Virus record (IMG/VR): IMGVR_UViG_3300036939_000003 | Location: 1-51,693 of that record | Reading direction: 5' to 3' (one strand) | Origin: a virus | DNA length: 51,693 bases | In this document: one piece after another, positions 18,582 to 30,838 of the stretch | Layout of the letters: every line of letters begins with the position of its first letter | Position numbering within the stretch: the stretch's first letter is position 1 | Notes under the pieces: model-generated | Databases searched by the model: none | What the model was told of the DNA's origin: nothing | Seen by the model: the letters and a program-made list of their open reading frames with translations, nothing else | Program-made: the position numbers and the translations under genes

Positions 18582-19724
18582 TTAATTTACGGCTTCTGTC
18601 GGAGTGAAGATTGTGTAATGGTCTGGATTTATGTCAGAAGAAACAGCCTGTAGAGCCGCCCGCATATTCTCATCTAAAACGTGCGTGTATATTCCGGTCG
18701 TGCTAATTCGCGCGTGTCCTAACGCTTCCTGAATCATCCTGCTTTCGTGACCGTCATCGAGCATCTTAGTCGCGAAGGAATGCCGCAAATCATGAAAGTG
18801 GAAGTCTTCTATCTGGGCGCGGTCTAAAGCATTCCACCATGCTATTTTGAAATCTTTCAAAGGCTTTCCGGTTTTTTGAGATATAAAAAGGTGATCGTTT
18901 GCTTTTTCCGATAGAGATAAAAAGATGTTCCACACTACAGGCGAAACGAGGGCTTTTCTTGCTTTATTCTGTTTAGATTTTTTGATATTAACGGCTTGGC
19001 GTGAGTGGTCTAAGTCCTGTTTTCTGACTCCGAGAATCTGCCCCCTGCGCCATCCGGTTAAAAGAGCAATTAGAACTATTGCAAGCAACTGCGTGTTTTT
19101 GGCACAGGCTACGAGCAATCTTTGTTTTTCCTCGATTGTTAAATACCTTTCGCGCGATTCCGGTTCAGCCAGCATCTTAACAAACCGCATCGGGTTTTCT
19201 TTCAGCTTCCTGTTTTCAACCGCATAGTTAAATAATCTCTTTAACGTAGTGAGTTCTCGGTTGACGGTGGAAGTCTTAACCGTTGGGCGTTCGCAACTAG
19301 CGTGAATCTGCCTTTCGCACTTCTGGCAGCGAACTTTCTGCTCCAATCTCCAAGCCTTGTAGTTTTCGCACATTCTAGGCGTGACGGATTTTAGCAGTAC
19401 GTTCTTAAAATAAGTTTTAAGATAATTGCACTCGATAACCTTTTGTTTGTAAGTGGTATTATTAATTTTGCAATAGGGAAGGTAGTCATCATCTATAAAT
19501 TCCGCAAAATGGGTTTTATCCTTTAGTAAATCAAATTCGCCGTTTCTTATCTTGCTTACAATTAAATCTTCACGTTCTTTTGCCTTATCCTTAGTCTTGC
19601 AGTCCTTCAATGCGTGGTGATAGCGTACTCCGCCTATCATCCCTTCAGCAATCCAAGTGCCTTTGTCATAATCGGGATTGCCGCGTTTTACTCGTTTTCC
19701 TTTATAGCGTTTATATAATGAAAT
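18582..19724 (-). CDS. int: Tyrosine integrase, probable ATT start
   Basis: Site-specific recombinase for insertion and excision of the prophage. From the ATG at 19638-19640 it has 352 residues, but this misses a conserved N-terminal arm-binding segment. The frame stays open upstream and reads SLYKRYKGKRVKRG...TWIAEG, like relatives. The only plausible start is ATT at 19724, 8 bases after a perfect AGGAGG. That gives 380 residues. Catalytic residues (380-aa numbering): Arg near 226 (GWRRGQ), HDLRH 311-315, His 337 (LGH), Tyr 346 (GIYTH). A CxxC-x4-H-x2-C cluster near 133-144 in the core-binding domain may bind zinc. First canonical ATG at 19640 is the conservative alternative. Confidence 0.88.
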   Translation of the reverse strand: MSLYKRYKGKRVKRGNPDYDKGTWIAEGMIGGVRYHHALKDCKTKDKAKEREDLIVSKIRNGEFDLLKDKTHFAEFIDDDYLPYCKINNTTYKQKVIECNYLKTYFKNVLLKSVTPRMCENYKAWRLEQKVRCQKCERQIHASCERPTVKTSTVNRELTTLKRLFNYAVENRKLKENPMRFVKMLAEPESRERYLTIEEKQRLLVACAKNTQLLAIVLIALLTGWRRGQILGVRKQDLDHSRQAVNIKKSKQNKARKALVSPVVWNIFLSLSEKANDHLFISQKTGKPLKDFKIAWWNALDRAQIEDFHFHDLRHSFATKMLDDGHESRMIQEALGHARISTTGIYTHVLDENMRAALQAVSSDINPDHYTIFTPTEAVN

Positions 19725-29968: not shown

Positions 29969-30838
29969 ATGCGCTTATTGGATTTATTTGCCGGGATTGG
30001 CGGCTTTAGCCTCGCAGCGCATTGGATGGGATGGGAAACGGTTGCTTTTGTAGAAAAAGACGAGTTCTGCCAGAAAGTATTGAGAAAGAATTTCGGAGAC
30101 GTGCCTATATATGGAGACATTCGTGAATTTGAGGGAACAACATACAGAGGTGCAGTTGACATTGTTTGTGGCGGATTCCCTTGCCAGCCATTCAGTGTTG
30201 CCGGTAAGCAAAAAGGGCGAGGTGACGAGCGTTTTCTCTGGAAAGAAATGCTTCGAGTTGTTCAAGTGTGTCAACCGCGATGGGTCGTCGCTGAAAATGT
30301 TCGTGGATTACTTTCTAACGAGCGCGGATTGGTATTCGAGAGTGTGTGTTCTGATTTGGAAATGGCGGGCTACTCCGTTCAATCGTTTATTGTTCCAGCT
30401 TGCGCCGTCAATGCGCCCCATAAACGAAACAGGGTTTGGATTGTTGCTAACTCCAACTGCATCAGACGCGAAAATGAGCAAGAAAAACAAATCAAAGCTT
30501 TACAAGACAAAATCGGGAAGTTATCGCCTACGCAACAAAGCGGGAACGTCAAGCAATGCGGGGCTTGCAAATATGATTCAGTTGCTACCTACGCCGATGG
30601 CAAGCAACGCACGAAAACACGATTACAGGTCAGAGAAAGCAAAACAGAAAGGCAACGGGCAGACTTTGAGCGAAGCGATTGGGTTGAAACTGCAACCGAG
30701 CTTTGTGGAATTAATGATGGGGTTTCCAATCGGGTGGACAGACTTAGAGCGTTAGGCAATGCGATTGTCCCCCAAATAGCTTTTGAAATATTCAAGGCGA
30801 TAGAACACGCCAAACAGCAGTTCCGAGTTAAACCGTAA
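29969..30838 (+). CDS. dcm: C5 cytosine DNA methyltransferase
   Basis: 289 residues. Motif I LFAGIGGFS at 6-14, motif II VEKDEFC near 28, motif IV GGFPCQPFS with catalytic Cys 72, motif VI AENVRG 109-113, motif VIII HKRNRVW 151-157, motif X GNAIVPQIA 263-271. The TRD region (160-250) is short and very hydrophilic, and a normal motif IX is missing from this frame; a motif-IX-like GFPIGW occurs instead in the overlapping +1 frame. Product: 5-methylcytosine in phage or host DNA, probably to evade restriction. No cognate nuclease is adjacent, so it is an orphan enzyme. Confidence 0.92.
   Translation: MRLLDLFAGIGGFSLAAHWMGWETVAFVEKDEFCQKVLRKNFGDVPIYGDIREFEGTTYRGAVDIVCGGFPCQPFSVAGKQKGRGDERFLWKEMLRVVQVCQPRWVVAENVRGLLSNERGLVFESVCSDLEMAGYSVQSFIVPACAVNAPHKRNRVWIVANSNCIRRENEQEKQIKALQDKIGKLSPTQQSGNVKQCGACKYDSVATYADGKQRTKTRLQVRESKTERQRADFERSDWVETATELCGINDGVSNRVDRLRALGNAIVPQIAFEIFKAIEHAKQQFRVKP
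30111..30755 (+). CDS. Candidate overprinted gene in the +1 frame of the methyltransferase
   Basis: An open frame of 214 codons lying wholly inside the methyltransferase gene. It does not look like a random shadow. Residues 90-121 read NRLLFQLAPSMRPINETG then LLLTPTASDAK, 158-168 repeat the motif as LLPTPMASNARK, and 198-212 end as FVELMMGFPIGWTDL. I recall hypothetical phage proteins with the same order of elements (W..S..C.L.WK, LLFQLAPS, LLPTPTAS, NP.FVE.MMGFP.GWT), often near cytosine methyltransferases. No clear ribosome site precedes the ATG, so either a weak start, coupling or a +1 shift would be needed. Function unknown; could complement the missing motif IX/target region. Confidence 0.5.
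   Translation: METFVNLREQHTEVQLTLFVADSLASHSVLPVSKKGEVTSVFSGKKCFELFKCVNRDGSSLKMFVDYFLTSADWYSRVCVLIWKWRATPFNRLLFQLAPSMRPINETGFGLLLTPTASDAKMSKKNKSKLYKTKSGSYRLRNKAGTSSNAGLANMIQLLPTPMASNARKHDYRSEKAKQKGNGQTLSEAIGLKLQPSFVELMMGFPIGWTDLER

Follow-up and report, generated by a model that had tools for sequence, protein, structure and literature searches.

In a virus record of 51,693 bases, analysed over its full length (hereafter the window), the gene for a C5-cytosine DNA methyltransferase contains a second, conserved gene in its +1 frame. We consider it likely that the two overlapping frames specify the two polypeptides of a single C5-cytosine methyltransferase, in which the nested chain (beta) provides target recognition and motif IX in trans to the large chain (alpha). 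This reading rests on in silico evidence, namely selection on both frames, a motif IX at the end of beta, and fused relatives that carry the same module in frame between motifs VIII and X. The translation of beta in this phage, the assembly of alpha and beta, the need for both chains and a target sequence set by beta are inferred, without protein, ribosome-profiling or methylation data. The features of the locus are the following.

29969-30838, + strand: alpha, C5-cytosine DNA methyltransferase large polypeptide, 289 aa, with motifs I-VIII and X and without motif IX (PF00145, phrog_363)
29987-30004, + strand: motif I of alpha, FAGIGG, SAM binding (frame-0 translation; conserved in the homologue alignment)
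30111-30755, + strand: beta, nested gene in the +1 frame of alpha, 214 aa, ATG start, proposed target-recognition and motif IX polypeptide (phrog_1008, open-frame conservation, synonymous suppression, dN/dS)
30173-30187, + strand: motif IV of alpha, GFPCQ, with the catalytic Cys72 (frame 0; PCQ invariant in the homologue alignment)
30222-30224, + strand: alternative start codon of beta, GTG, with a purine-rich AAAAAGGGCGAG just upstream (at or adjacent to the ATG site of most relatives)
30327-30410, + strand: conserved core of the N-terminal part of beta, residues 73-100, DWYSRVCVLIWKWRATPFNRLLFQLAPS, overlapping alpha motifs VI-VIII, a predicted beta-hairpin (W74, S76, C79, L81, W83, R92 and L97 far above the synonymous null)
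30413-30445, + strand: motif VIII of alpha, APHKRNRVWIV (frame 0; homologue alignment; constraint lost downstream)
30441-30473, + strand: LPTP module 1, LLLTPTASDAK, beta residues 111-121 (+1 translation)
30582-30614, + strand: LPTP module 2, LLPTPMASNAR, beta residues 158-168 (+1 translation)
30690-30740, + strand: motif IX of beta, LQPSFVELMMGFPIGWT (the equivalent in fused homologues aligns with M.HhaI RKLHPRECARVMGYPDSY; hhalign of beta against the fused families, 98%)
30752-30781, + strand: motif X of alpha, LGNAIVPQIA, directly after the beta stop (frame 0)

A second coding frame inside the methyltransferase gene

Alpha is a member of PF00145 (DNA_methylase) by motifs I, IV (PCQ), VI (ENV) and VIII in one chain. 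It matches this family with E=2.7e-53 (residues 1-220, profile positions 1-227 of 324, the match ending past motif VIII), TIGR00675 with E=1.2e-42 and phrog_363 with E=5.8e-85. Inside this gene the initial annotation had described an uninterrupted +1 ORF of 214 codons with two LLxTPxAS modules and the C-terminal sequence FVELMMGFPIGWTDL, all of which are present as described.

The open +1 frame is conserved well beyond what frame 0 would leave by chance. Synonymous-codon permutation of the window gene leaves the +1 frame open in only 0.045% of cases, with a mean of 5.4 stops. Homologues were fetched by the frame-0 protein only, a selection that is blind to +1, and 80 of the 83 distinct loci obtained are free of +1 stops from motif IV to motif X, against 1.06 expected under synonymous permutation. 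The same loci contain 4 stops in +1 where 311 are expected; frame-0-intact homologues with scattered +1 stops, which would have refuted the proposal of a second gene, were thus not seen. When counted up to motif IX only, the +1 frame is open in 81 loci and interrupted in none, the remaining 2 having no match to the motif pattern. No depletion is found in the +2 frame (1289 stops vs. 1324 expected). As a control, methyltransferases were analysed in 16 bacterial genomes holding such loci, leaving out 7 further loci that were unusable. Methyltransferases with full-length Pfam matches (canonical) have no depletion of +1 stops (84 vs. 92.7 expected) and no motif IX in +1 (0/7); truncated-match methyltransferases of the same genomes have 11 stops for 50.6 expected and carry motif IX in +1 in 14 of 15 cases.

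Synonymous variation gives a consistent picture. In a frame-0 alignment of 84 sequences, codon identity at identical-residue positions, as a ratio to the null, is 1.12 before the overlap, 1.33 near its start, 1.47 in motifs IV-VIII, 1.92 in the recognition (TRD) region, 2.50 at the end of the overlap and 1.08 after it. Suppression of synonymous variation is confined to the overlap, with normal levels on either side; the initial annotation had proposed this test. At the level of single +1 residues, conservation also exceeds the synonymous null: W74 (99% vs. 53%), S76 (100 vs. 38), C79 (85 vs. 15), W83 (100 vs. 29), R92 (80 vs. 18) and L97 (92 vs. 26) in the N-terminal core, and P196 (95 vs. 24), M203 (100 vs. 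51), G204 (98 vs. 23), P206 (99 vs. 24) and W209 (93 vs. 30) towards the C terminus.

It could be argued that the +1 frame is not a gene and merely a by-product of frame-0 conservation and composition. Some +1 residues are indeed forced by motifs IV, VI and VIII, and the caveat that conservation might in part be imposed by frame 0 holds for early residues (LASHS from PCQPFS), but not for many others, such as W83, C79, G204 and P206, that lie far above the null. The synonymous-codon nulls, the +2-frame and canonical-methyltransferase controls and the near-neutral TRD of frame 0 (see below) all contradict this explanation, to which we give practically no credence. On the permutations, the stop counts and the residues above null, both pure chance and forced conservation were rejected. 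The ORF at 30111-30755 is not a chance ORF, and the second coding frame is confirmed.

A profile search with the 214-aa product, suggested in the initial annotation, was successful in part: beta matches phrog_1008 ('DNA methyltransferase') with E=4e-27 (residues 14-212, profile positions 36-281 of 329), and nothing meaningful was obtained for it in Pfam, NCBIfam or PDB sequence searches.

Recognition region and motif IX in the +1 frame

To assign the recognition region to a frame, changes were counted by their effect in both frames. Over motifs IV-VIII both frames are constrained (dNN/dSN of 0.22 for frame 0, dNN/dNS of 0.53 for +1). Past motif VIII, frame 0 is near neutral (dNN/dSN 1.19) and +1 is constrained (dNN/dNS 0.44). 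Gap-free pairs, used so that the alignment favours neither frame, give values of 1.08 (frame 0, dNN/dSN) and 0.26 (+1, dNN/dNS) for the TRD region, with +1 more conserved than frame 0 in 53/53 pairs, though the sequences are related and the pairs not independent. With another estimator, dNS/dSS is 0.63 for frame 0, and a weak constraint on this frame past motif VIII is not excluded. As frame 0 is near neutral and +1 constrained past motif VIII, the recognition region is read mainly in +1, and the 'TRD' of the annotated methyltransferase is largely a pass-through of the other frame.

Within this region the LPTP sequence in +1 is 73-94% conserved, compared to 24-49% under the synonymous null, and a beta mostly has 1-3 xTP modules (range 0-6). 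The modules may be related to target specificity. The number of LPTP modules differs among relatives (e.g., the betas of L004, L030, L206 and L322), as if they had been duplicated or lost.

The proposal that frame 0 contains motif X without motif IX, the latter being supplied by +1, extends well beyond the window: no motif-IX-like string is found in frame 0 of the window, and it is absent from frame 0 in 229 of the 231 loci, with only 2 having it there. Alpha also fails the criterion that motif IX and the TRD lie on the same chain, with motif IX in +1 and a near-neutral frame-0 TRD. Given the missing motif IX and the near-neutral TRD of frame 0, alpha by itself is without a part required in C5 enzymes, and beta has motif IX at the right place.

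The identification of motif IX is supported by actinophages, in which the same module occurs in three arrangements: fused, split and nested. In the fused form (Wachhund gp69, Aggie gp53, PFR1 gp45, DLane gp65), motifs I-VIII, the LLPTP modules, motif IX (EWMMGWPAGWVT, or EWMMGLPDGLVT in PFR1) and motif X are found in one frame. In the split form (Peaches gp77/gp76, Catdawg gp6/gp5, Float294 gp62/gp61), the frame-0 protein ends just past motif VIII, and an overlapping +1 ORF contains the modules, IX and X; the betas of this form match phrog_1008 with E=3.3e-96 to 5.2e-59. In the nested form, to which the window belongs, motif IX is in +1 and motif X is back in frame 0. This geometry was observed in 148 non-redundant loci, and among the 227 loci in which both motifs were located, 173 have a spacing of 44 or 74 nt from the +1 motif IX to the frame-0 xGN.

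M.HhaI is matched by a profile built from the fused proteins (E=6e-33 to 8e-33). In a second segment of the HMMER alignment, the fused consensus krlspafvEWlMGlpeGwvt..lGNGVvpq lies opposite RKLHPRECARVMGYPDSY..FGNSVVIN, the motif IX-X part of M.HhaI. This segment is not significant alone and its assignment rests on the register and on the motif X that follows. For the motif IX stretch, hhalign relates beta to the fused families at 98%. A confident fold was predicted for one fused protein (L319, pTM 0.81), and the model superimposes on M.HhaI with Z 24.9 over 231 residues (rmsd 3.1), aligned from the first to the last residue, so that this fused relative is predicted to be an M.HhaI-like enzyme. 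Judged by these alignments, beta ends in motif IX, which frame 0 lacks.

Structure prediction for beta alone is less informative. The AlphaFold model is poor (pTM 0.29) and shows no confident fold; the strands of the N-terminal core (residues 80-87 and 93-100) reach a pLDDT of ~90. At E<=0.001, a Foldseek search with this model against viral models gave no more than three matches, each with a low TM-score and the best of them to the beta homologue of phage KM23-C739, and no match at Z>=2 was obtained against the PDB with VIA-align.

Proposed mechanism and the role of beta

In the proposed mechanism, alpha would contribute motifs I-VIII, for SAM binding and catalysis, together with the motif X helix at its C terminus, while its stretch from motif VIII to motif X would be mostly a passive read-through of the +1 frame. 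Beta would be translated from its own internal start and would comprise, in this order, an N-terminal domain over alpha motifs IV-VIII, the target-recognition part with the LPTP modules, and motif IX. Alpha and beta would then assemble, with beta docking as the small domain, into an active sequence-specific enzyme.

The initial annotation had left undecided whether beta is an overprinted gene or both frames are used through a +1 shift. Programmed ribosomal frameshifting from frame 0 to +1 past motif VIII would produce one fused enzyme, and the order seen in actinophages, with I-VIII in frame 0 followed by TRD-IX-X in +1, amounts to one enzyme after a single shift; fused single-ORF relatives exist as well. 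However, the segment of beta upstream of motif VIII would then stay untranslated and is nevertheless conserved, in the nested form motif X could be reached only by shifting once more, back to frame 0, and an internal ATG is favoured across loci. We consider a frameshift unlikely, and an independently initiated nested gene fits better. The term 'overprinted' is apt in that there is a second gene, but beta is most likely the recognition and motif IX part of the same enzyme and not a new, unrelated protein.

Internal initiation is preferred because the conserved +1 segment starts upstream of motif VIII. In addition, an ATG lies in the open +1 frame close to the conserved start region in 218 of 221 loci, its most frequent site being favoured by the choice of GAT. 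At this commonest start codon, which matches or adjoins the window GTG, an ATG is present in 149/221 loci. It arises when GAT is chosen for a conserved frame-0 Asp, with a GAT:GAC ratio of 144:41 where the background is 1969:2047; for the frame-0-selected set alone the two ratios are 54:28 and 648:675 (p=0.003). For the window itself the true start of beta is undecided, and translation may begin at GTG 30222 rather than at ATG 30111.

Beta could also be real and have a separate function (e.g., control of the methyltransferase, anti-restriction or clamp binding), its likeness to motif IX being secondary. Loci in which IX and X are fused to alpha (L273, L274, L275, L277 and others) still have a +1 ORF with the N-terminal domain of beta and LPTP modules over motifs IV-VIII, and +1 is open over these motifs in 11 of 21 fused loci (2.35 expected). 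The retention of this ORF is unexplained by a simple 'missing half' model. In addition, a QLTLF-like string is found at the equivalent +1 site near the N terminus of beta in 10 of 84 loci, above the 1.05 expected from synonymous shuffles. A separate function does not account for a frame 0 that is without motif IX in nearly all loci examined and near neutral over the TRD, and we find this explanation quite improbable. Within the preferred two-polypeptide enzyme, a second function of beta remains a tentative possibility: because the N-terminal domain persists in +1 where TRD, IX and X are fused in frame 0, it might act as a partner or controller (perhaps tethering the enzyme to replication), so that beta would be not only the missing half.

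The QLTLF of the window itself (beta residues 15-19, 30153-30167) lies near the N terminus of beta and resembles the bacterial sliding-clamp-binding motif; a role in clamp binding is putative, inferred from likeness only. No free-standing beta genes were seen in pattern-based scans, and an overlapping methyltransferase is present in all of the at least 80 IMG/VR loci fetched with beta.

Distribution and comparison with known systems

Relatives of the locus are found in phages of Paenibacillus, Lacticaseibacillus, Acinetobacter, Escherichia, Pseudomonas, Mycobacterium, Gordonia and other hosts, and in bacterial assemblies from Bacillota, Bacteroidota, Pseudomonadota and further groups. A tree of 179 alpha sequences, restricted to motifs I-VIII and with the root and the direction of change undetermined, separates the nested loci from the rest by a single branch (99/93); in it the split label requires at least 4 changes (gains or losses) relative to the fused group. 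The forms have changed repeatedly between nested, split and fused.

Several loci have features of their own. One chromosome assembled from an uncultured Roseovarius (OX638333.1) contains five copies of the gene-pair locus with equal match scores (L218-L222). In a Brevibacillus fortis contig (L190) the alpha frame is broken by an early stop and the beta region still matches. The window encodes, by eye only, a tyrosine-recombinase-like integrase (RHSFATKMLDDG.ESRMIQEALGHARISTTGIYTHV) at 18582-19640 on the - strand, which suggests a temperate phage.

Existing records differ in their treatment of the locus, with some annotating the large chain only and others both chains. The depositors of Lily list gp63 as 'g62 internal gene', those of phage K1G annotated both genes, and mycobacteriophage records often show two adjacent methylases under one match. 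Annotation pipelines tend to drop one of two overlapping genes. In L006 (KT997847.1, 1291-2127 of the locus), the genes called by the depositors keep to one frame over 80 codons before passing to the +1 ORF, with the remainder of frame 0 in another frame of the record, making this an example of a misread annotation.

If our reading is correct, the annotation of a large fraction of phage 'dcm' genes is incomplete, and the large chain by itself would have neither target recognition nor motif IX, a possible reason for inactive clones and for unassigned specificities. The same-strand overlap of >600 nt is conserved across many tailed-phage lineages, with one frame for the recognition module and the other for the catalytic core, and the nested/split/fused series would be a natural test of a protein that changes reading frame yet works. 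In the open-access literature, to which our search was limited, we found no description of the arrangement as a phage-wide feature, nor an explanation of it. New in this work are the spread of the arrangement, the placement of the recognition region in beta by selection, the conserved extra N-terminal domain of beta and the repeated changes between nested, split and fused forms.

By analogy, the closest characterised precedent is M.EcoHK31I. According to Lee, Kam and Shaw in 1995, its small chain is reportedly read from another frame nested in the large-chain gene, and both chains are said to be needed in vitro. The window resembles this enzyme in having I-VIII and X on alpha and IX on beta, and, given the nesting reported for EcoHK31I, in having beta in an alternative frame nested in alpha. 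M.EcoHK31I (YGGCCR) is a two-polypeptide C5 methyltransferase with motifs I-VIII and X on the large chain and motif IX on the small chain (PMC3404938). In contrast to the window, where selection places the TRD in beta, its TRD is predicted on the large chain, and it is part of a restriction-modification system. For M.AquI (CYCGRG), alpha contains motifs I-VIII and beta the distal variable region with IX-X (PMC3404938). This resembles the split actinophage form, with motif X on beta, whereas the window has motif X on alpha and a beta that lies entirely within the alpha gene. Fragment complementation is known for C5 enzymes, in that artificial splits just past motif VIII work in M.SssI and M.HhaI, and cuts between VIII and the TRD complement best in M.SssI (PMC3404938, PMC3439449).

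Among phages, the pairs of Peaches, Catdawg and Float294 have the same beta family, overlapping alpha in +1, but differ from the window in that alpha ends past motif VIII and beta also carries motif X. From gene numbers and from membership of cluster A4, to which Peaches presumably also belongs, we infer that the two methylase genes of phage Kampy (cluster A4) are the same overlapping pair as in Peaches. Both Kampy genes are transcribed early, and at 15 minutes one of them shows the highest transcription of any gene (PMC4626039). Gp62/gp63 of Paenibacillus phage Lily comprise an internal gene at the same position as the window beta, in a record without stated function or conservation. In ShiLan, a hidden HNH endonuclease lies out of frame inside a phage methylase (PMC11855218); it is similar to the window in being an out-of-frame gene within a phage methylase gene, but represents a mobile insertion with an HNH enzyme in another frame, and the window beta has no HNH match. 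The window locus is a variant of the known two-polypeptide C5 methyltransferases, with evidence from selection that recognition lies in the nested chain.
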